A DNA stretch of 64,000 nt from Planctomycetes bacterium ADurb.Bin069. GTDB taxonomy: Bacteria; Planctomycetota; UBA8108; UBA8890; UBA8898. Below are positions 47,468-63,510 of this stretch, one piece after another. Position 1 is the stretch's first letter; the number at the start of each line of letters is the position of its first letter. The stretch is taken from the NCBI GenBank assembly GCA_002070955.1, contig MWEK01000013.1, positions 62,001 to 126,000 of the forward strand. Direction: 5' to 3'. A model generated the notes under the pieces. The model made no database searches and was not told where the DNA came from. It worked only from the letters and a program-made list of their open reading frames with translations. The position numbers and the translations under genes were made by a program.

Positions 47468-49030
47468 TCACTCGAACACCAAACCGTTCGCGCCGTCGGC
47501 CCAAGCCGAGACGGCGCGCCCTTGGTAGCCCGCCTCCTTCGCGCGCGCGTTTCGTCCGATCAGAAAGCGTCCGTCCGGCAGCCCGACAATGCCCAGGGAA
47601 GCATCGCATTCCCAGCGGCCGGTGAGTTGGAAGTCGGGGTCGAAGCGCAACAGGACGCACGGCTTGCCGTAGCAGCCGAACCACCACGAGCCGGCGGCAA
47701 AGGTCGCGGTCTGAATACCCATTAAAGTGTAGCCGCCGGACAGTTCATGCCGCTGCCGCAGCCTGAATTGCGCATCGTACTCATAGACGCAGTTGGCGGC
47801 GGCGCCTTCGGGCAGCCCCCCCACCACGAGGAAGACGCCTTCGCGATACGCCACGCCGCCGGCGCCGTGCACCACCTCCGGGACGGGGTGCCGGGCGCAT
47901 TCGTCCAGCGTGTCGGCATCGTAGACGAAGATCCACGAGTCGGCCTGACCGGCGGGTTGGTTGAACTTGCCGAGATTCACCGCCGCGTAGACCTTGCCCT
48001 CGTGAAAGCACAAGTCGCCGTGATGATTCGCAGCCGGAATGCGTTTGAGGACGCGGCCGCTCCGGTCGGTTTTCACCAGAGTGTCGGTCCAGCTCCAGTA
48101 AATCGCGTCGCGGTCGTTCGTGCAAATGCCCTGGAGATGCAGGGGATAAGCCCCCTCGCAGGCCGCGGCTTCGAAGGCGGGCGCCGCCGGCTGCCGCCAA
48201 AACTCCTCGTCCAGGACGAAGCGGTGCTCGCTTTCCGGCCGGCCGGGATCGGCGATCAAGACGCGCAGCCGCGGCGGTCCGACGGCGGGCGTCTCCACGA
48301 TCCAGGAGGAGAGGGTGCGGTTCCCTTGTCCATCGCGCCAGAGGCTGTCGTTCGGGCCGTTTTTATCGTCGCGGCTCAATTCGACGAAGCACTCCGTGTC
48401 GTAGGGAGCCGGTTTGAGCTGCAGCAGCTCGGCGATCCTTGCGGCCCGCGTGGCGCTGCTCCGGCCGACTTTGATGTTGAACTCCTGCATGCTTTCGTCA
48501 AGGTAATGGTTCGTGTGGACCACGGGCCCGGATTGCACGGCTTTGAGCACGTACCGTTCGTTCAGGCCGATCTCGAGCACGAGGATCTTTTTGCGGTCCG
48601 AAATCAGCATGAACGCGGGCCGGCGGTTACGGAAAAGCTTCTCGCGGTTCGCGAGCACTTCGTCGCAACTGGCATACCCGGCGAGGATGGCGGTCACGAG
48701 GCCGCCGCGGCCCGGCTGGCTTGCGCGAACCTTCTCGGGGATCGAACCCGCGGTGGCCGTCATGACCGCCAGCCCTTTTTCGTTGATGCCCTGCTTGCAG
48801 CCCGGGAAGGCGTTGCCTTCGGCGAAGAGGCCGAAATAGGCATACCCCTCGGCGGGGCGGCACAGCTTGACGCGCTGCACGTGGTCGGGCAGCCAATCCC
48901 GGTTCTTGGAGACGATCGTTCCGCCGCTTGCGTCCGCACCCGCGGCGCCCCAGAGCGTGCAGGCCCATGCGCCCGCGGGCGACACACCCAGAAACAACCA
49001 AAGGAGCAGACTCGTGCTTCTCGATCGCAT
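47468..49030 (-). CDS. Secreted Ntn hydrolase fused to a beta-propeller
   Basis: 520 residues. The signal peptide ends AGAWA and the next residue is Cys, giving CTLWGAAGADASGG with Cys as the first mature residue, as in choloylglycine-hydrolase and C45-type Ntn enzymes whose nucleophile becomes N-terminal. KNRDWLPDH and GINEKGLAVMTATAG continue the fold, ending near residue 240 with LSSWIVETP. The second half (about 260-520) is a six- or seven-bladed propeller of the lactonase/quinoprotein kind. The fusion is not one I can name. The ATG at 49030 has no clear Shine-Dalgarno sequence. It is divergent from the heparinase-like gene. Confidence 0.75.
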   Translation of the reverse strand: MRSRSTSLLLWLFLGVSPAGAWACTLWGAAGADASGGTIVSKNRDWLPDHVQRVKLCRPAEGYAYFGLFAEGNAFPGCKQGINEKGLAVMTATAGSIPEKVRASQPGRGGLVTAILAGYASCDEVLANREKLFRNRRPAFMLISDRKKILVLEIGLNERYVLKAVQSGPVVHTNHYLDESMQEFNIKVGRSSATRAARIAELLQLKPAPYDTECFVELSRDDKNGPNDSLWRDGQGNRTLSSWIVETPAVGPPRLRVLIADPGRPESEHRFVLDEEFWRQPAAPAFEAAACEGAYPLHLQGICTNDRDAIYWSWTDTLVKTDRSGRVLKRIPAANHHGDLCFHEGKVYAAVNLGKFNQPAGQADSWIFVYDADTLDECARHPVPEVVHGAGGVAYREGVFLVVGGLPEGAAANCVYEYDAQFRLRQRHELSGGYTLMGIQTATFAAGSWWFGCYGKPCVLLRFDPDFQLTGRWECDASLGIVGLPDGRFLIGRNARAKEAGYQGRAVSAWADGANGLVFE

Positions 49031-49138
49031 GCGCAATCAACGCGGCGTCCGCCGCGCCCGTATCACCGCCATCACACCCCGCCGCCCTGCAATGTACTCC
49101 CGCGCCGCTTCCCTGTCAACCGCCTCGCCGAAACCCGG

Positions 49139-49168
49139 TTGTCCCGGAAACCCCGAGCGGGTTACGAT
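49139..49168 (+). promoter_or_regulatory. Candidate promoter of the heparinase-like gene
   Basis: TTGTCC at 49139-49144 and TACGAT at 49163-49168, 18-bp spacer. The -35 has the same sequence as that of the 9479 gene promoter. Confidence 0.45.
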
Positions 49169-49193
49169 GACGGCAAGTTCAGGAGGTGTTGCG

Positions 49194-51050
49194 ATGCTGA
49201 CGACCGCTGCGGTTCTCGTTCTGACGGTTCTGGGCGGCGCGCCCGCCCCCGCCTTCGACCCCGCCCTTCCGAAGCGCGCGGATGTGCTCGCCGGCCTGAA
49301 GTCCGGCCACCCGCGCCTTCTGGCCGGCGCGGACACGTTTCCCGCCATCGCGCGCCTGGTCGAGGACGATCCCGTTGCGGGGGCGTGGTACGCGGCGATC
49401 CGCAAGGAAGCCGAGGCGCTCCTCGCCAAGGAGCCCTCGCGCTACGAGATCCCCGACGGCCTCCGGCTTCTGGCCACCAGCCGCCGCGTCGTCGATCGGA
49501 TTTACACCCTCGCCCTAGTTTACCGCGTCGAAAACCACCGGCGCTGGGCGGAACGCGCGTTCAAGGAGCTCGCGGCGGCGGCGGACTTTCCCGACTGGAA
49601 CCCGCGGCATTTCCTCGACACCGCCGAAATGACCCACGCCTTCGCGATCGGCTACGACTGGCTGTACGACGCCCTCTCCGCGGAGCAGCGCGGCGTAATT
49701 CGCGCGGCGATCGTCGAGAAGGGCCTGAAGGCGGCGCTGCCCGCCTACCGCGGAGAACCGCGCGCCGCCGGCTGGCCGCGGGTGCGGCACAACTGGAACC
49801 AGGTGTGCAACGGCGGCATCGTCATGGGCGCCCTCGCCCTCGCCGACGAGATCCCCGACCTGGCGGCCGAGATCCTCGAGCGCGCCGTGGCGTCGTTGGT
49901 GCTCCCAAGCCGGGAGTTCGCGCCCGACGGCGCCTGGGCCGAAGGGCCGGGATACTGGCGCTACGCGGTGCAGTACCACGTCCTGTTCTTGGCGGCACTC
50001 GCCAGCGCGCTCGGCACGGACTGGGGACTCTCCGACGCGCCCGGCCTGGCGGAAACCGGCACGTTCCCCTTCCATATCACCGGGCCGACCGGCCAAACGT
50101 TCAACTTCGCCGATGCCGGCACGGGCGCCATCCGCTCCCCGCAGATGTTCTGGTTCGCGCGCAGGTTCCAGAAACCGATCTACGCCTGGTACGCTCGGGA
50201 GCATGCCCGCCCCGAAGTCCTCGATCTGCTCTGGTACGACGCCCGCGGCGACGCCGCCGCCGCCGCCGCGCTCCCCCTCGCCAAGCACTACCGCAACGCC
50301 GAGGTCGCCGTGTTCCGGACGGCCTGGAACGATCCCGGCGCCCTCTTCGCCGCCTTCAAGGCCGGCGACAACAAGACCAACCACAGCAACCTCGACCTCG
50401 GCACGTTCGTCCTCGACGCCCTCGGGCAGCGTTGGGCGCTGGACCTGGGCGCCGACGACTACAATCTCCCGGGCTACTTCGGCGCGCTGCGCTGGACGTA
50501 CTACCGCCTCCGCGCCGAGGGCCACAACACTCTCGTTTTCAACACCGGGGAGGAGCCGGACCAGGACCCGCGGGCGGCCGCGACGATCACGCGCTTCGCG
50601 GCGGCGCCCGGCCGCGCGTTCGCCGTCGCGGATCTCACGGCCGCCTACAAGAAGTGGGCCGCTTCGGTGGCCCGCGGCGTCGCGCTCATCGAGAACCGCG
50701 CCGTGGTGGTTCAGGACGAGATCGAACTTCCCGCGCCGGGCGTTGTCCGTTGGTTCATGCACACGCGCGCCCAGATCGCCACCCACGCCGGCGGCGCGAC
50801 CCTCTCCCTCGGGGGAGCGGCGCTCGAGGTCAAGATCCTGGAACCGGAAGGCGCCGCGTTCACGGTCATGGAGGCCGCGCCGCTGCCCGGGAGCCCGAGG
50901 CCCGAGCGCCAGAATGACAACCGCGGCGTACGCAAGCTCGCCCTCGTCCTCGCGGGCGCCGCGCGGGCGCGGATCGCCATCGCCTTCATCCCGCTGCGCG
51001 GGGACGCGGCCGCGCCGCCGCCCGCGGTGACGCCGCTGGCGGCGTGGTGA
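49194..51050 (+). CDS. Heparinase II/III-like polysaccharide lyase
   Basis: 618 residues with a signal peptide (MLTTAAVLVLTVLGGAPAPA). AGGAGG lies 6-9 nt before the ATG. The N-terminal alpha-toroid has HPRLLAGADTFPAI, WNPRHFLDTAEMTHAFAIGYDWLYD, and VRHNWNQVCNGG, followed by EGPGYWRYAVQYH with the catalytic-type Tyr. The C-terminal beta-sandwich shows KTNHSNLDLGTFVLDALGQRWALDLGADDYNLPGYF and GHNTLVFNTGEEPDQD, the metal and active-site strands of the heparinase II/III family. It probably cleaves acidic polysaccharides such as heparan-like or alginate chains; the substrate cannot be read from sequence. It sits 143 nt from the divergent Ntn hydrolase gene. Confidence 0.88.
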   Translation: MLTTAAVLVLTVLGGAPAPAFDPALPKRADVLAGLKSGHPRLLAGADTFPAIARLVEDDPVAGAWYAAIRKEAEALLAKEPSRYEIPDGLRLLATSRRVVDRIYTLALVYRVENHRRWAERAFKELAAAADFPDWNPRHFLDTAEMTHAFAIGYDWLYDALSAEQRGVIRAAIVEKGLKAALPAYRGEPRAAGWPRVRHNWNQVCNGGIVMGALALADEIPDLAAEILERAVASLVLPSREFAPDGAWAEGPGYWRYAVQYHVLFLAALASALGTDWGLSDAPGLAETGTFPFHITGPTGQTFNFADAGTGAIRSPQMFWFARRFQKPIYAWYAREHARPEVLDLLWYDARGDAAAAAALPLAKHYRNAEVAVFRTAWNDPGALFAAFKAGDNKTNHSNLDLGTFVLDALGQRWALDLGADDYNLPGYFGALRWTYYRLRAEGHNTLVFNTGEEPDQDPRAAATITRFAAAPGRAFAVADLTAAYKKWAASVARGVALIENRAVVVQDEIELPAPGVVRWFMHTRAQIATHAGGATLSLGGAALEVKILEPEGAAFTVMEAAPLPGSPRPERQNDNRGVRKLALVLAGAARARIAIAFIPLRGDAAAPPPAVTPLAAW

Positions 51051-52299: not shown

Positions 52300-52441
52300 T
52301 GCGGCTCCTTTCTTGCTACCCGATGATCGTCCGAAAAAGTCCGGGGCTTGAGAGTCCGCCGCGGGCCGATAAAACACCGCCGCCGCGCGCGCCGCGCGGC
52401 TTCCGGCGGCGGTTGCGCCCGGTTCCGGCCGCTCCGTCTCC

Positions 52442-52470
52442 TTGCATCGACCGATTCGATTCGCTATAGT
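52442..52470 (+). promoter_or_regulatory. nifJ promoter
   Basis: TTGCAT at 52442-52447 and TATAGT at 52465-52470, 17-bp spacer, about 100 nt upstream of the nifJ ATG. Confidence 0.6.
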
Positions 52471-52569
52471 CGGCCCATACTTTCGGTGTTTCCCGGCGCC
52501 GCCGCGAGGCGCGGCGTCCAGCAGGGAGCCGTTCCCCGCGCCGGGCGAGCAGGTCCGCAGGAGGCGCAA

Positions 52570-56181
<3,612 letters not shown>

Positions 56182-56245: not shown

Positions 56246-58861
56246 TCAGCGCCGCCTGCGGCGCTCGGGCATGAAGACCTCCGTCGCCAGAACGCCGAGC
56301 GCGCCGAAGAGCGGGTGCAGGAACACGCCCCAGAGAAGCGCCTTGACCCCGGCGCTTGCCAGCGCTTCGCCGCCCGCGGGCGCGATGGCGTGAAGCACGG
56401 TGTGTCCGGCGGCGAAGAGCGCCGCCATCGCCGCGCCTCCGGCCAGCGCTCCGGCCAGCCGCCGCGCGAGCGGCGCTCCGCCGGCCCCCAGGGTCGCGAT
56501 GCTCCCCGCGAGAAGCGGCAGCCCCATCATGAGCGGCCACAGCTCGAGCTCGCCCAGCGCCTTCCCGCCCCTGAACTGAAACACGGCCTCCGCCGCGCAG
56601 AGCAGCGCGGCCGCCCCGAGGCCGGCGGCGAAGGCCGGCCACAGCCGCGCGGGGCGGCCCGCGCGGCGTTCCTCCCGCTCGCGCATGCGCCGCCTGACCG
56701 TGAGCGGATAGTTGTAGCACAGGCCGAAGACCGCGTGCTCGAGCAGCGCGCCGCGCTCGCCGAACACCGGAATCAGGTGCACGGCGTCGGTGGCCCAGTG
56801 CGCCGCCATGAACCGCGCCAAGGCGGGATAGCGGCTCGCCATCTGAATCGGAAAGGCCAGATAGCCCACGTACTTGAAGAAGCTCAGGAAGAGCGCGATG
56901 TTGTAGTCCCTGAAGTTGCGCTCTCGAAGGACGAGGTACACCACGTACGCGCCCCGCGCGAGGGAACCCGGCGAGATCGGCGTCAGTTGGAACAGAACGA
57001 GCAAGACGCCCGCGGCAATCAGGATCTCCTTCCACGGCCAGCCGCAAGCGACGCCCGCGACGACCGCGATCATGATGGCCACGGTCTGCGTCACCGGCAA
57101 GGTGCACAAGTGCACCGCCAGGCTCTGCAGGTACTTTTGGATGAAGGGCTCGCCGGCCACGGCGCGGATTTGAGCGGCGTCTTTCTCGGTGAGCATGTGC
57201 TTGCGGCGCCCTTCGTCCACCATCTCGAAGAGCCAGGCCTCACGCTCCTTGGCGTTGAAATACAGGCGCACGGGGCGCACGAAGAAGTGCTTGAGCCGCT
57301 CGACGGCGTAGGCGCCGTCGGTGAGCAGCCGGTGGACGGGCGCGGGCAGCCACGCGCAGGCCAGGTGCCCCAGCAGGCGCGCGGGCCTGGCGGCGATGGC
57401 CAGGGCGCGCGCATCGCTGACGCGGCCGGCGCGCAGCCAGCGCACGAGCTTCTCGGCCGCGTAGCCCCGCAGCGCCCGGCCGAAGTATTCCCGACTCGCA
57501 AGCATGCTCGCATAGTGGCGCCTGAGATCGGCGCGGCCCCAGACCTTCCTGAGGAAGGCGCCGGCGATGCCGCCCGCGGCGGCGAGGGCGAGGCCCGCGC
57601 CCGCCGCCGCGAGCCACGCGCATCCGGCGGCCCACAGGCCGACCCCCGCCGCCGCGCCGCCGGCGGCCGCCAGCAGCGGCGCGAAACCCGCGCACAGGAA
57701 GGCGGCGGCGCGCGCGCGGCTGCGCCGGAGCCTCTCCGCGCAGGCGCCGTCGGCGATGCCGCGCAACTCCCAGCTTGCGACGAGGGCCGCGAGCACCTCG
57801 GGCAGGAGCCGCGGATCGGTCAGCAGCCGCACGTGGTTGTGAGTCACGTCGAGGACCGCCCGGCGCCGGCGCTCCTCGACCGCGACCAGTTCCGCGTGCA
57901 CCTCGGCCAGGTCGGCGAACGCGTCGCGGCGGGCTTCCACAAAGGCCGCGAGGGCGGCCAGATCGCCGCGGTCGAACTGGACCAGGCTCCCGCGCCGCAG
58001 GCCCTGGGCGATCAGCGCCACATCGCCGGGGCTCATGGGCAGGAACGGCAGGAGCGCCAGGCCGGGCCGGAAGTCCACCGCCGTGAGCCCGCCGGAGGAG
58101 AAGTCCGCCGCTTCGTTGCGCTTGAGGCAGTTCGGTTGACTCTTCAGCGTCCACCACTCGTACTGCCGCGCGAACTCCCGGGCGCCCATGGCGTGCAGGA
58201 GTTCGACGAAATCGCGCATGAATACGCGCTTGGCCCGGAACTCGGGCGAGCCCAGCCCCTCGCCGTCGCCGCGCGCGCGCCACGCCCAGCGCCTGAGGGC
58301 CGTGGTGTCGTCGTCGACCTCCAGAAGCCAAGACCGGCCGTCGACCCATTCGCTCAGCTCGCCGCAGCTCCCGAGGACGGGATCGACGAAGGTCGCCAGG
58401 ATGCGGACGACGGCCCGTTCGCTCCCGAACCTGAGTTTCGCGCCGCGCCGGATCAGCGTCTGCCATAACGCGCCCGCGCGGGCGGCATCGGGGTTGACCT
58501 GAAGCTGAAACGGACCCTGAAACCCGGCGGCGTAGATCGCGTCGCGGAACCGCCGGTTGAAGCCGGTCGGCGGCACGAGGATCTTCATGGCGTACACGCC
58601 GCCGGGCTCCAGGCCCGCGATCGCGTCGCCCTCGACCGCGAGCACGGCGACGCGATAGACCTGGCCCGCGAATCCGCCGCCGACGAAGGCTTCGATACGC
58701 ACCGCCACCCGCGCGCGCGCGGCAGGCGCAATGCCAAGCGCCTCGTACGCGCGCACGGCGCCCGGGTCGTACCGTTCGACCCGCATGGGGCGATGCACGC
58801 CCGCCGCGGCGTAGAGGCGCGCCAGCTCCTCGCAGGTCTGCGGAGCATACTCGCTGTGCAT
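56246..58861 (-). CDS. Large membrane protein with a kinase-like N-terminal domain
   Basis: 871 residues. Residues about 40-330 have a protein-kinase-like order of motifs: a glycine-rich loop GGGFAGQVYRV (near 61), VYAMKIL (AxK, near 90), a hinge-like SEWVDGRSWLLEV, WWTLKSQPNCLKRN where kinases have HRDLKPxN, and GLTAVDFRPG where they have DFG. The catalytic-loop Asp is missing, so it may be inactive or ATP-binding only (inference). From about 395 to 450 are two or three helices, then a charged region (455-590), then two further blocks of helices (about 595-700 and 745-865) including LTPISPGSLARGAYVVY. I do not recognise the whole protein. The end ...FMPERRRRR is basic. Confidence 0.7.
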   Translation of the reverse strand: MHSEYAPQTCEELARLYAAAGVHRPMRVERYDPGAVRAYEALGIAPAARARVAVRIEAFVGGGFAGQVYRVAVLAVEGDAIAGLEPGGVYAMKILVPPTGFNRRFRDAIYAAGFQGPFQLQVNPDAARAGALWQTLIRRGAKLRFGSERAVVRILATFVDPVLGSCGELSEWVDGRSWLLEVDDDTTALRRWAWRARGDGEGLGSPEFRAKRVFMRDFVELLHAMGAREFARQYEWWTLKSQPNCLKRNEAADFSSGGLTAVDFRPGLALLPFLPMSPGDVALIAQGLRRGSLVQFDRGDLAALAAFVEARRDAFADLAEVHAELVAVEERRRRAVLDVTHNHVRLLTDPRLLPEVLAALVASWELRGIADGACAERLRRSRARAAAFLCAGFAPLLAAAGGAAAGVGLWAAGCAWLAAAGAGLALAAAGGIAGAFLRKVWGRADLRRHYASMLASREYFGRALRGYAAEKLVRWLRAGRVSDARALAIAARPARLLGHLACAWLPAPVHRLLTDGAYAVERLKHFFVRPVRLYFNAKEREAWLFEMVDEGRRKHMLTEKDAAQIRAVAGEPFIQKYLQSLAVHLCTLPVTQTVAIMIAVVAGVACGWPWKEILIAAGVLLVLFQLTPISPGSLARGAYVVYLVLRERNFRDYNIALFLSFFKYVGYLAFPIQMASRYPALARFMAAHWATDAVHLIPVFGERGALLEHAVFGLCYNYPLTVRRRMREREERRAGRPARLWPAFAAGLGAAALLCAAEAVFQFRGGKALGELELWPLMMGLPLLAGSIATLGAGGAPLARRLAGALAGGAAMAALFAAGHTVLHAIAPAGGEALASAGVKALLWGVFLHPLFGALGVLATEVFMPERRRRR

Positions 58862-59026: not shown

Positions 59027-59047
59027 GTGGCTAAGGAGGTGCAGCCC

Positions 59048-60631
59048 ATGGAGCGTCCGCACGGCTATCCTCGGAGGGAGCTTCGTTTTTCGCGGGGGCC
59101 CGTTCCGGCGCACGATCAGCGCCCGCAGCACGGCCGTTTCCCGCCGCGCGCGCACCAACGCCAACCTGCCGCGCGCAACAACCCCGGCCTCATGGCCCTC
59201 GCCGTCGTCGGCGTCGCGCTCTTGCTCGGTATGATCATCATTGTCGCCGGCAGGGTGAACCGGCGCCCGACGGATGATGCCGCGCTGCCGCCGTCGGCGC
59301 AGGACACCCTCGATCCGCAGGCCGTCCTCGCCCGCGACATCGCGGGCCTGCGGCTCCTCACGGGCTCATACGAGGACAGAATCCGCCGGGTCGACATGGT
59401 GAAGCCGCGGGCGACCAAGGCCTCCGACCGCACGGCGATCGCGCAGATCAGGCTCGGGTTCCTGATCGAAAAGGAGAAGGAGGACCTTGCCGCGCTGCGC
59501 GCCCTCAAGCCCTCGATCGCCGCGCTCATGGACAAGGGCGATTTCGCGGGCGCGGCCGAACTCATCGACAAGTTCGAGAAGGACCACGGCTTCATCCTCA
59601 AGGGCGCCGCCGGCACCGTCCGTAATCTCGCCGGCGAGGTCGAAGCGCTCCGCGCCGAGGTCGCGCGCTCCCTCGAGGCGACCTTCCAAAAGGATGTCGC
59701 GCTCCTCAAGAGCGCGGCCGCGGCGGACGATCTCGCGGGCGGCAGCGCAATCCTGGAGCGCATTCTCACTTACGGCGACGAGCGGATGAAGTCCGAGGCG
59801 CGGGCCGAGTGGGAAAAGGCCGACGCGTCCTACGCCAAATTGCGGCAGAAGGAACTCGCGCGCCTGACCGCGAACGAGGCGCGCGTCCAAGCACCGGCGG
59901 CGCCTTCCCCGCCGTCCGGCGCCGCCAAGCCCCCTGAACCCGACGAGGCGGAGCTCGCGCCCGACCCGGAGCCGCCGGCCCCGCCCACCGACGCCGCCGC
60001 CGACGACTTCTTCGGCGGCGGCGCCAAGCCCGCCGGCGACGTCAAGGCCTTCACGCAAGTGGCGTCCAACAGGGACGGGACCTTCACGGCGACGATCGAG
60101 CGGCACAAGGTGACCCTGGTGTTCGCGTCCACATCGCTGGTGTGCGTCGACGCCCCGATCCAGCCGAAGAAGTACGCCGAGCACATGGTCGCCGAACTGC
60201 CCGTCCTCTTCTACTGCGAGGCCAAGACGCTCCCCCTGGACCAGGACCCGACGGGCGGGCGGCGCATCTTCAACATGGACTTCCTGATCATGGGCGATGC
60301 GCTCCCGGACGCGGCCCTCTACCACGACCCGAACCCCAAGAAGAAGCTCAGCACGTGGTTCAAGGGCACGTTCTCCCGGCGGGCGCCGCAGCTCATCTTC
60401 CGCCTGGCGAACCAGGAGTACATCGCGGCCGACGAACCGAGCATTGTTCTCAAACGCAAGACGATCGCCGCGAACGAGCTGCCCCGCGCGACGTTCAAGG
60501 CCTTCGTGTCCGGCTCGATTTCCCCGCCCGACCCCGAGGGAGTCGAGAAACTCACGGTCAAGAAGTTCGTGGTGCTGCCCGCCTCGAACGCGGCCAATGC
60601 GGCCATTTATCGGGCGCTGCTCCAGGAATAG
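59048..60631 (+). CDS. Membrane-anchored protein of unknown function
   Basis: 527 residues. A basic cytoplasmic N terminus of about 45 residues (rich in Arg, Pro, His and Gln) is followed by one transmembrane helix (LMALAVVGVALLLGMIIIVAG) and an extracytoplasmic part. Residues about 75-285 are helical and charged, probably coiled coil (DLAALRALKPSIAALMDKGDFAGAAELIDKFEK). A Pro/Ala/Glu linker covers about 286-325. The last 200 residues are a beta-rich domain (FTATIERHKVTLVFASTSLVCVD). The ATG at 59048 has AAGGAGGTG 8 nt upstream and is preferred to the GTG at 59027. No family is recognised. Confidence 0.75.
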   Translation: MERPHGYPRRELRFSRGPVPAHDQRPQHGRFPPRAHQRQPAARNNPGLMALAVVGVALLLGMIIIVAGRVNRRPTDDAALPPSAQDTLDPQAVLARDIAGLRLLTGSYEDRIRRVDMVKPRATKASDRTAIAQIRLGFLIEKEKEDLAALRALKPSIAALMDKGDFAGAAELIDKFEKDHGFILKGAAGTVRNLAGEVEALRAEVARSLEATFQKDVALLKSAAAADDLAGGSAILERILTYGDERMKSEARAEWEKADASYAKLRQKELARLTANEARVQAPAAPSPPSGAAKPPEPDEAELAPDPEPPAPPTDAAADDFFGGGAKPAGDVKAFTQVASNRDGTFTATIERHKVTLVFASTSLVCVDAPIQPKKYAEHMVAELPVLFYCEAKTLPLDQDPTGGRRIFNMDFLIMGDALPDAALYHDPNPKKKLSTWFKGTFSRRAPQLIFRLANQEYIAADEPSIVLKRKTIAANELPRATFKAFVSGSISPPDPEGVEKLTVKKFVVLPASNAANAAIYRALLQE

Positions 60632-60634
60632 CGC

Positions 60635-61855
60635 TCAGAGGAACCGTCGTCCTTCCCGCTCCGGCTCCTTGGGCCGGGCGCCGAGCGTCACGGCGAAGGT
60701 TCGGGCGTTGGCGTCGCGCATGACATCGACGGCCACGACATCGCCGGGGCGATGCATCTGGAGCACCGCGTCAAGCTCCTCCGGCGAATCGACGAGCACG
60801 CCGTCGAACGCCACGATGAGGTCGCCGGCCTCGATGCCCGCCGCCTTGGCGGGGCCGGACGCCTCCAGCACGTGCACGCCGTCGAGCCGCATCGCCGCGC
60901 GCACGCCCAGGTACGCCTTCTCCTCGGACATGGCATCGAGCGTCACGCTCACGAGTTCGTCGCGCCCGTCGCGCACGATCCAGCACACGACGCGCTCGTG
61001 CGCCCGGTGAGCGCCGAGGACGTTCAGGCACTGCTCGGGCGAATGCACCGCGGTGCCCGCGACGCTCACGATCCTGTCGCCCCGCGCGAACCCGGCCGGC
61101 GTGACGCCCGCGCCCGGCGCCGCGACGAAGACGCCGCCCTCGCCCCGCTCCAAGCGCAGCCCGCGCACGGCGCCGCGGGCGATCTCCTTGCCTTCCGCGG
61201 CGGCCATGGCGGGCAGCAGCCTGCGGATCAGCTCCGCGCCCGCGCCGTAGCCCGCGCCCGTGTTGGCGCTCAGACCGAAGCGGCTGGCGATGCGGCTGCT
61301 GATGCCCACGATCTCGCCGCGCAGATTTACGATCGGGCCGCCCGAGTTGCCCGGATTCAGCGCCGCATCGACTTCAATCGCATCGAGGTGCACCGGGCTG
61401 AAACGGCCCACGCCGCTGATTATCCCGCAGCTCACGCTCGGCGCGAAGCTCGGCGCCGCCGGCAGCAGGCGCGGGTTCTGCATCCCCAGGAGGAACGGAT
61501 TGCCGATGGCGAACACGGTTTCGCCCACGCGGCAGGCGGCGGGCTCGGCGACGGGAAGGTACGGCAGGCCGCGGGCGTCCTCCAGCCGCAACAGAGCTAG
61601 ATCGCCGGCGACGTGGCGCCCGAGCACGCGCCCCACGCGGCGCGTGCCATCCGTCGCGAACACCTCCCACGTCTCCCGGGACTTGACCACGTGATCGCAG
61701 GTCAGAACCAGGCCGTCCGGGCTCACGACGACGCCCGAGCCGCCGTCGATGAAGACGTAGGCCTTCACGGCGGCCGCGATGGCCTCGCTGAGGCGCGATT
61801 CCAATTCCGGCGCCGGGGCCGACGCGCACAGGATGCAGACGAGAACCGCAGCCAT
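60635..61855 (-). CDS. HtrA/Deg-like serine protease with two PDZ-like domains
   Basis: 406 residues with a signal peptide (MAAVLVCILCASAPAP). The chymotrypsin-like domain retains the triad: His55 in VLTCDHVV, Asp85 in AGDLALLRL and Ser171 in LNPGNSGGPIVN. Two PDZ-like regions follow (about 235-315 and 320-400: AGFARGDRIVSVAGTAV and AAGIEAGDLIVAFDGVLVDSPEEL). The architecture is that of periplasmic HtrA/DegP-type quality-control proteases. The ATG shares one base with the stop of the upstream gene (TGATG), so the two are translationally coupled. It ends 3 nt from the plus-strand gene at 60631, so the two transcripts converge. Confidence 0.92.
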   Translation of the reverse strand: MAAVLVCILCASAPAPELESRLSEAIAAAVKAYVFIDGGSGVVVSPDGLVLTCDHVVKSRETWEVFATDGTRRVGRVLGRHVAGDLALLRLEDARGLPYLPVAEPAACRVGETVFAIGNPFLLGMQNPRLLPAAPSFAPSVSCGIISGVGRFSPVHLDAIEVDAALNPGNSGGPIVNLRGEIVGISSRIASRFGLSANTGAGYGAGAELIRRLLPAMAAAEGKEIARGAVRGLRLERGEGGVFVAAPGAGVTPAGFARGDRIVSVAGTAVHSPEQCLNVLGAHRAHERVVCWIVRDGRDELVSVTLDAMSEEKAYLGVRAAMRLDGVHVLEASGPAKAAGIEAGDLIVAFDGVLVDSPEELDAVLQMHRPGDVVAVDVMRDANARTFAVTLGARPKEPEREGRRFL

Positions 61856-63510
61856 CAGATTCCCTCCGGCCTGGAGGCCAGCGTCACGGGAATGAGTTTG
61901 CGCTCGCCGTTGCGCAAGACGATGACGGCGATCTTGTCGCCCGCGCGGTACCTGTTGATCTCGGCGACGAGCTCGCCCCAGGAGTTCACCGGCGTGCCGG
62001 CGATGCCGACGATGGCATCGCCCGAGGCGACGCCGGCCTCCGCGGCCGCCGATCCGGGCTGGACGTCGACGGTGATCGTCCCCACGGCCTGGTCGCCGCC
62101 GCGCGAGCGCACGCCGAGGTACGGCAGCTCGGACCAGGCCAGCAGGTTCCGGCCCTCCCGGAGGGCGGGCAGCGCCTCGGCGATGCGCTCGGGCCGCACT
62201 CCGAAACCGATCCCCGAATTGAGCGACCATTCGGGCCACACGTGGCCCACGTAGGCCGTGATGCCGAGGAAGCGGCCCGCGCGGTCGACCAGCGCGCCGC
62301 CCGAGTTGCCGAAATTGGCGGCCACATCGTGCTGGAAAAAGCGCGCGTTGTTTCGGAACGAAGCACTCACGATGCCGCCCGTGACCGTCAGCGCCGCGGG
62401 ATCCGGCGAGCGGCCCAGCGCGAACACGGCCCCGCCGGGTTCGAGGGCGCCTCGGTCGGCCGGTTCGGCGGCTTCCCAGACGCCGCCCTCGGCGCGCAGG
62501 AGCGCCATGTCGTCGACCTCGCCCGAGGCGAGGAGCACGCAATCGAACCAGGCGCCCTCCGCGTCCCGGGCTCGGAGGCGCGTAACCGCGCCCGCCACGT
62601 TGTACCACGAGGTCAGAATCGTCCCGTCCCGGTCGATGCACACCCCCGAGACGCACCCCTTGGGCCGCGTGAAGGCCTCGGGCTGCCGCCGGCGCAGGAG
62701 ATCCAGTCCCTGAGGCAGAAATCCGCCCTTGCGCATGGCGACATCTTCCGTACGTTCGACCTCCAGCGCCGTGACGCGGCGCGCCCATGTTTCGAACACC
62801 TCCCGGGGAAGGGCGTCGCGCGCCGCGCCCGCGGCGGCGGGCACGGCACCCGCGGCGCTCTCGATGAAGTCTCTGAGCAGCCGGACCGGCACGGCGGTGC
62901 CCAGGAAGCGCAGAGGGCTGTAGTTGAGGGACAGGACCCCGATCACGGCCCCGCTCGAGTCCAGGAGCGCGCCGCCGTCCGAACCCGGGTTGAGGGGCGC
63001 ATCGGTCTCGAGCACGAGGCCCTTGTAGGTCGCCTCGCTGCGGGTCTCGCCCAAAACGTAGCGCCCGCTCAGCACGCCGGCGCCGACGCTCACCCTGCCT
63101 TCACCCCCGGCCACGCCGTAGGCGTTGCCGAGGGACAAGACGATTTGCCCCACGCGCTCGTCTTCGCCGAACCTGAGGGGCAGGCACGGCAGGGGGCTGT
63201 CATCGAGCTGCGCGAGGGCACATTCCTTCGCGGTGTCCACGGCCAGCAGCGTCGCGGGCAACATGCGCCCGTCGCTCAGCGTCACGCGGATATCGGTCGC
63301 GCCCGGCGGGAGCACCGTGCTCGAAGTCAGGATCACGCCGTCCGCCCTGATGATCGTGCCCGTCCCGAAGTACCCGCCCTGCGGCCCTCGACACACGATG
63401 CCCACGGAGGCGCGCTGCGCCCGCCGGGCGAGCAAGGCGAGATCTTCCTCGGCGCGGGCCGATGTTCCAAGGCCGGTAACGAGGAGAAGCAAGCAGAGCA
63501 TTGGTCGCAT
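61855..63510 (-). CDS. Tandem degenerate trypsin-like protein with a C-terminal PDZ domain
   Basis: 551 residues with a signal peptide (MRPMLCLLLLVTGLGTSARA). Two trypsin-like domains are visible. In the first (about 30-220) all three catalytic positions are replaced: Thr65 for His (ILTSSTVL), Glu96 for Asp (DTAKECALAQL) and Asp178 for Ser (LNPGSDGGAL). In the second (about 240-440) Asp334 and Ser403 (NFGNSGG) are kept but His is Tyr303 (ILTSWYNV). A PDZ domain follows (about 465-545). This suggests a non-proteolytic binding or regulatory partner for the active protease encoded just downstream. Upstream ATG (63510) with GGGAT; no other start is better. Confidence 0.85.
   Translation of the reverse strand: MRPMLCLLLLVTGLGTSARAEEDLALLARRAQRASVGIVCRGPQGGYFGTGTIIRADGVILTSSTVLPPGATDIRVTLSDGRMLPATLLAVDTAKECALAQLDDSPLPCLPLRFGEDERVGQIVLSLGNAYGVAGGEGRVSVGAGVLSGRYVLGETRSEATYKGLVLETDAPLNPGSDGGALLDSSGAVIGVLSLNYSPLRFLGTAVPVRLLRDFIESAAGAVPAAAGAARDALPREVFETWARRVTALEVERTEDVAMRKGGFLPQGLDLLRRRQPEAFTRPKGCVSGVCIDRDGTILTSWYNVAGAVTRLRARDAEGAWFDCVLLASGEVDDMALLRAEGGVWEAAEPADRGALEPGGAVFALGRSPDPAALTVTGGIVSASFRNNARFFQHDVAANFGNSGGALVDRAGRFLGITAYVGHVWPEWSLNSGIGFGVRPERIAEALPALREGRNLLAWSELPYLGVRSRGGDQAVGTITVDVQPGSAAAEAGVASGDAIVGIAGTPVNSWGELVAEINRYRAGDKIAVIVLRNGERKLIPVTLASRPEGI

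Follow-up and report, generated by a model that had tools for sequence, protein, structure and literature searches.

The question raised by this locus is what a protein might do that joins the ordered motifs of a kinase to a large membrane region and lacks the catalytic Asp of the HRD motif. In the window, by which we mean the whole 64,000-nucleotide stretch of DNA that was analysed, one gene encodes such a protein (Table 1). The initial annotation described kinase motifs in order followed by helical membrane blocks. Both are present in the 871-aa ORF, as are the segments it quoted: GGGFAGQVYR (residues 61-70), YAMKI (with K93), GELSEWVDGRSW (167-178), WWTLKSQPNCLKR (236-248) and VDFRPG (262-267). 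A weak Shine-Dalgarno-like GGGAG lies 11 bases 5' of the ORF, and the gene occurs as one copy in its genome. A congener (G001) carries a partial copy with about 76-81% identity. Differences between the gene and this fragment number 79, 56 and 131 at codon positions 1, 2 and 3, a bias toward the third position that is consistent with purifying selection.

When the protein, its domains and members of its family were queried against Pfam, NCBIfam, PADLOC and PDB sequences, nothing was returned beyond noise, and for these collections the earlier statement that no named family has this build was borne out. A literature search found no paper on the kinase-like membrane protein.

Table 1. Coordinates of the kinase-like gene, its parts, its neighbours and the second-branch members.
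Feature	Residues	Coordinates	Strand	Remarks
Whole gene, kinase-like/membrane protein		56246..58861	-	871 aa, ATG start
N-terminal domain, predicted kinase fold	1-345	57827..58861	-	AF2, Foldseek, hhalign with Pkinase
Gly-rich loop GGGFAGQVYR	61-70	58652..58681	-	family alignment; aligns with Pkinase Gly-loop
Beta-3 Lys motif YAMKI	90-94	58580..58594	-	K93 invariant
Hinge-like segment GELSEWVDGRSW	167-178	58328..58363	-	alignment; overlaps end of model strand 165-171
Altered catalytic loop GAREFARQYEWWTLKSQPNCLKR	226-248	58118..58186	-	family alignment
DFG-like and short activation segment AVDFRPGLALLPFLPMSPGD	261-280	58022..58081	-	family alignment
Hydrophobic insert	385-437	57551..57709	-	minority of relatives
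Conserved membrane core	540-738	56648..57244	-	YLQSLAVHLCTLPVTQ...FQLTPISPGSLARG...RERN...DYNIA...KYVGYLAFPIQM...YPALARFMA...PVFGERGALLEH
C-terminal extension, four long predicted helices	740-865	56267..56644	-	poorly conserved
Pyruvate:ferredoxin oxidoreductase gene, window neighbour		52348-56181	+	
534-aa ORF, divergent from kinase-like gene		59027-60631	+	without Pfam match at E 0.001
Second-branch member		L237:591-2291	-	core-only search; without Pfam match
Second-branch member		L238:2022-3623	-	core-only search; without Pfam match
Second-branch member		L239:1479-3026	+	core-only search; without Pfam match

Predicted fold and active-site positions of the N-terminal domain

By prediction, residues 1-345 belong to the kinase-fold class. 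The AlphaFold model of residues 1-352, built with 82 sequences, has a pLDDT of 88.5 and a pTM of 0.89, with its secondary structure in kinase order. Searched against the PDB with Foldseek, it gave 139 matches at E<=1e-3 with a probability of ~1.00, and the best 50 of the 139 were kinase folds without exception. The kinase-like reading thus passed the structure search suggested in the initial annotation. The top matches were ThurKC (4e-5) and GSK3beta (5.8e-5), and among the matches listed were the lanthipeptide synthetase kinase domains ThurKC and CurKC, along with GSK3, CK2 and VRK. For the full-length model, the first structural matches were PknB, CK2, GSK3 and JAK. The TM-scores against solved kinases are low (0.24-0.44), which indicates a divergent C-lobe. 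Independently of structure, hhalign places the Gly-loop and Lys of the family profile in register with Pfam Pkinase. The kinase-domain profile scored 42.3 against Pkinase, compared with a maximum of 22.8 for 40 column shuffles and 13.6 for the reversed profile. Since this score lies above the shuffles and the motifs are among the best-conserved parts in 85 sequences, the motifs are beyond chance.

In the alignment of up to 85 distinct sequences, G61-G63, A65, G66, Q67 and Y69 of the Gly-loop do not vary, and K93, E229, N244 and D263 have zero exceptions, with N244 and D263 present in 85 of 85. Invariant or nearly so are W172, G175, R176 and W178 of the hinge-like segment, G226, E229, A231-Q233, W236 and K240-N244 of the catalytic loop, and A261, D263, G267 and D280 further on. 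The roles of N244 as catalytic-loop Asn and D263 as DFG Asp were assigned by motif order and the secondary structure of the model. Counting back from N244, the HRD Asp would fall at residue 239, which is C in 55 sequences, M in 14, W in 6, L and A in 4 each and G in 2; D or E was never seen. The suspected absence of the catalytic Asp therefore extends to the whole family. A check of the helix region 100-145 for the alpha-C Glu gave a consensus without a conserved Glu, and the best-conserved polar residue among those checked there is Q134 (81 of 83 sequences). The activation segment is very short, leading from D263 to PMSP at 275-278, and the stretch from the end of helix E to the catalytic Asn presumably holds some 8 residues more than in a typical kinase, as counted against PKA. 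That K93, N244 and D263 occur without exceptions argues against decay, and the additional invariant residues E229, R232, Q233, W236 and K240-S241-Q242-P243-N244 suggest a special site that has been maintained.

How does this pattern compare with known kinase folds? The family shares with Pkinase (PF00069) the N-lobe layout, the Gly-loop, the beta-3 Lys, the catalytic-loop Asn, the DFG Asp and, by Foldseek, the fold. It differs in the missing HRD Asp, in the alpha-C Glu, for which no conserved residue was found, in the short activation segment, in the lack of a Pfam match and in its large membrane domain. The UbiB/ADCK proteins (ABC1, PF03109) resemble it in having a kinase-fold domain tied to membrane lipids and in a GQV(Y/H)R in the Gly-loop region. 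However, their HxDxHxGN is absent from the family, which also lacks a Pfam ABC1 match and has many more membrane helices. As closest kinase family, ABC1 was rejected at an hhalign Prob of ~1, with a profile of only six sequences picked by HxDxHxGN, and Kdo gave no match with a profile of one sequence only; with so few sequences, both are weak tests.

Another kinase-like protein for comparison is SelO, which like the family lacks the HRD Asp but retains the Lys, Asn and DFG Asp; it also has the alpha-C Glu and was predicted to stay active without the HRD Asp (PMC3281104). No sequence match was seen between SelO and the family. SelO is not known to be a polytopic membrane protein, and its AMPylation activity was demonstrated later. 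The family can also be compared with bacterial membrane pseudokinases such as MviN/ActPs3, where a kinase-fold domain likewise forms part of a polytopic envelope-lipid protein (PMC12599244). The MviN domain is degraded at Lys, HRD and DFG and does not bind ATP (PMC12599244), whereas in the family, of these positions, only the HRD Asp is missing and the others are invariant. The order of the parts is also reversed: the pseudokinase domain of MviN (residues 710-942) follows the transporter, while the kinase domain of the family precedes the membrane part.

The membrane part and a second branch

Hydrophobic stretches lie at about 385-437, 581-635 and 654-672, with several more toward the C-terminus at about 740-865. 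The membrane core has many polar residues and conserved polar signatures, and its conservation equals that of the kinase part, with a mean majority-residue fraction of 0.69 (561-735) versus 0.67 (1-345). Compared with Pfam and PDB sequences, the core gave no recognisable relative. The C-terminal extension is shorter in Kiritimatiellota/Lentisphaerota members, and the sequence varies over the final 130 residues. The insert at 385-437 was found in only about 18 of the 85 sequences, which suggests a changeable membrane portion between the kinase domain and the core. In two related genomes (L129:5962-9624, plus strand; L130:4441-8088, minus strand), a family member is extended in frame by about 500 residues without a Pfam match, a helical part followed by a soluble-looking part.

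The two halves occur together: profile searches of 294 genomes, run separately with the kinase part and with the membrane part, returned nothing but two-part proteins and three more distant proteins that share this architecture. These three came from the core-only search, measure 515-566 aa and belong to other Planctomycetota genomes. They have a Gly-loop and Lys at the start, GFDGLxWQAGxGNP and WIDxESGVPALxPLNP, and a similar core at the end. Profile comparison of this second branch with the main family over 480 columns gave a Prob of 98.4 (E 4.6e-15). Alone, the second branch gave a Prob of 80 against Pkinase, while the controls LPG_synthase_TM, PgpA, CdsA and PgsA reached at most 1.1. By the same counting from the Asn, the HRD Asp is absent in both branches. 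The shared build argues for an old two-part architecture.

Distribution and gene neighbourhoods

The family is unnamed, bacterial and strongly conserved, centred on Planctomycetota and found also in related phyla. A scan of a genome collection with one genome per species gave 31 relatives with 40-55% identity, most of them near full-length, in bins labelled Planctomycetota/Phycisphaerae, Kiritimatiellota, Verrucomicrobiota, Lentisphaerota and KSB1, and a few in bins labelled Aminicenantes and Desulfobacteria; these labels are as submitted and can be wrong. By profile search, 11 of 294 sampled genomes of the phylum carry the family, as do 89 of the 397 sampled from one Planctomycetota class, nearly always as one copy per genome. 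No relatives were found in the viral contigs scanned or among the plasmids searched. Within the window's own class, 2 of 29 genomes carry the family at a significant E, and these are confined to its genus. As the window copy groups in the tree with Phycisphaerae-type sequences, mainly of family f100 and with modest support (88), transfer of the gene into this genus is possible.

Around the 85 family loci, genes of lipid synthesis recur. By raw locus counts, pgpA lies in the flank of 44, mostly as the next gene upstream in the same orientation, 3-140 bp away, and its identity was confirmed by Pfam. It is followed, with purA between, by uppS (27 loci) and cdsA (26 loci). In genomes of the f100 type, both pgpA and pgsA are found downstream, on the other strand (pgsA at 12 loci), and in G382 cdsA and uppS occupy this position, making at least three distinct arrangements. 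Most of the pgpA linkage stems from Phycisphaerae-type genomes that are related to one another, so that the loci are not independent, and many deep lineages have flanks without a lipid neighbour; the differing arrangements across lineages nevertheless favour a functional connection with lipid synthesis. Noticed post hoc were lpxB and lpxI near L025 and lpxB and lpxK near L030. The lipid-handling guess of the initial annotation thus gains from the neighbourhoods of relatives but not from the window itself, where no neighbour of the kinase-like gene is a lipid gene. Close upstream of the gene lie two overlapping frames, 61855-63510 (-) and 60635-62788 (-), of trypsin-like/PDZ (HtrA-type) character, of which Pfam covered 61855-63510 (-). 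The window also encodes a heparinase II/III-like protein (48867-51050, plus strand; Pfam Hepar_II_III_C, DUF4962).

Candidate functions

Given the kinase-like build and the frequent position of relatives beside membrane-lipid genes, the protein is probably ATP-driven and handles or regulates lipids. The particular form of this that we put forward, at slightly less than an even chance, is an integral-membrane protein in which an ATP-binding kinase-fold domain works with a membrane core that acts on an envelope lipid in PG/CDP-DAG metabolism. The cytoplasmic kinase-fold domain (1-345) would keep the parts needed for Mg-ATP (Gly-loop, beta-3 Lys, catalytic-loop Asn and DFG Asp) around a catalytic loop rebuilt without the HRD Asp. 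It may bind ATP and carry out an atypical transfer or hydrolysis. The membrane core would hold an envelope lipid or a precursor of one, within the phosphatidylglycerol/CDP-DAG part of lipid metabolism, and the ATP would serve to modify, move or gate it. We infer the cytoplasmic side, ATP binding, catalysis, the substrate and the coupling of the two halves; the membrane core and the neighbours point to a lipid or a lipid enzyme as the target. This apparently unnamed family, with its unusual active-site pattern and fused membrane core, enlarges the kinase-fold superfamily and is a specific candidate for a protein that uses ATP to control or modify membrane lipids, in bacteria about whose envelope biology little is understood. 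With its invariant residues and its linkage to pgpA, the family lends itself to direct tests.

The missing HRD Asp, together with the lack of a clearly conserved alpha-C Glu, means that activity may be absent. The main rival, which we regard as rather unlikely, is a membrane pseudokinase, whose domain would bind a nucleotide or partner protein only as sensor or scaffold and gate the core, which would form a lipid transporter or enzyme. Its role would be like that of the mycobacterial MviN pseudokinase domain, which regulates a transporter of cell-wall lipids (PMC12599244). The absence of the HRD Asp in 85 of 85 sequences fits this, as does core conservation matching that of the kinase part, and pseudokinases with a C-terminal TM region are a known bacterial theme (PMC12599244). 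Yet most of the bacterial pseudokinases described there are also altered in Lys or DFG (PMC12599244), whereas K93, N244 and D263 are constant here and many additional catalytic-loop residues are invariant. With the ATP/Mg positions and the extended loop signature held invariant while position 239 is free, we favour atypical ATP use over a dead scaffold, for which SelO would be the precedent of an HRD-less kinase fold. Extending atypical ATP use to both branches, one may picture a superfamily of HRD-less membrane kinase-fold enzymes in Planctomycetota and their relatives, tied to PG synthesis, with new loop chemistry (ExxRQxEWxTxKSQPN) acting on an envelope lipid; this broader proposal is doubtful.

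A true protein phosphotransferase, that is, a membrane Ser/Thr kinase that relies on an unconventional catalytic base and has lipid genes as neighbours only incidentally, would agree with the best Foldseek matches, to protein kinases and to the kinase domains of lanthipeptide synthetases, and with the activity predicted for SelO without the HRD Asp (PMC3281104). It is nonetheless improbable with so short an activation segment, no HRD, one copy per genome, many helices instead of one and a recurrent linkage to lipid genes. No extracellular sensor domain is recognisable, and the suggestion of a receptor was dropped for lack of any sensor-like domain. A shade less probable still is kinship with lipid flippases of the LPG-synthase-TM/YbhN/MprF type, to which a kinase-like regulator would have been joined. 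The proline-glycine-rich signatures of those flippases are echoed in PISPGS and PVFGExGALLEH, and the linkage to PG-synthesis genes would suit this reading, but LPG_synthase_TM (PF03706) was rejected as the origin of the membrane core: hhalign Prob was 7 with the membrane part and 1 with the second branch, neither significant, and there was no PF03706 hit. Least probable is a chance resemblance in a helical or other non-kinase membrane protein: Pfam kinase models match none of the 82 domain sequences, but the main family has structure and profile matches to kinases, and the second branch has a profile match.
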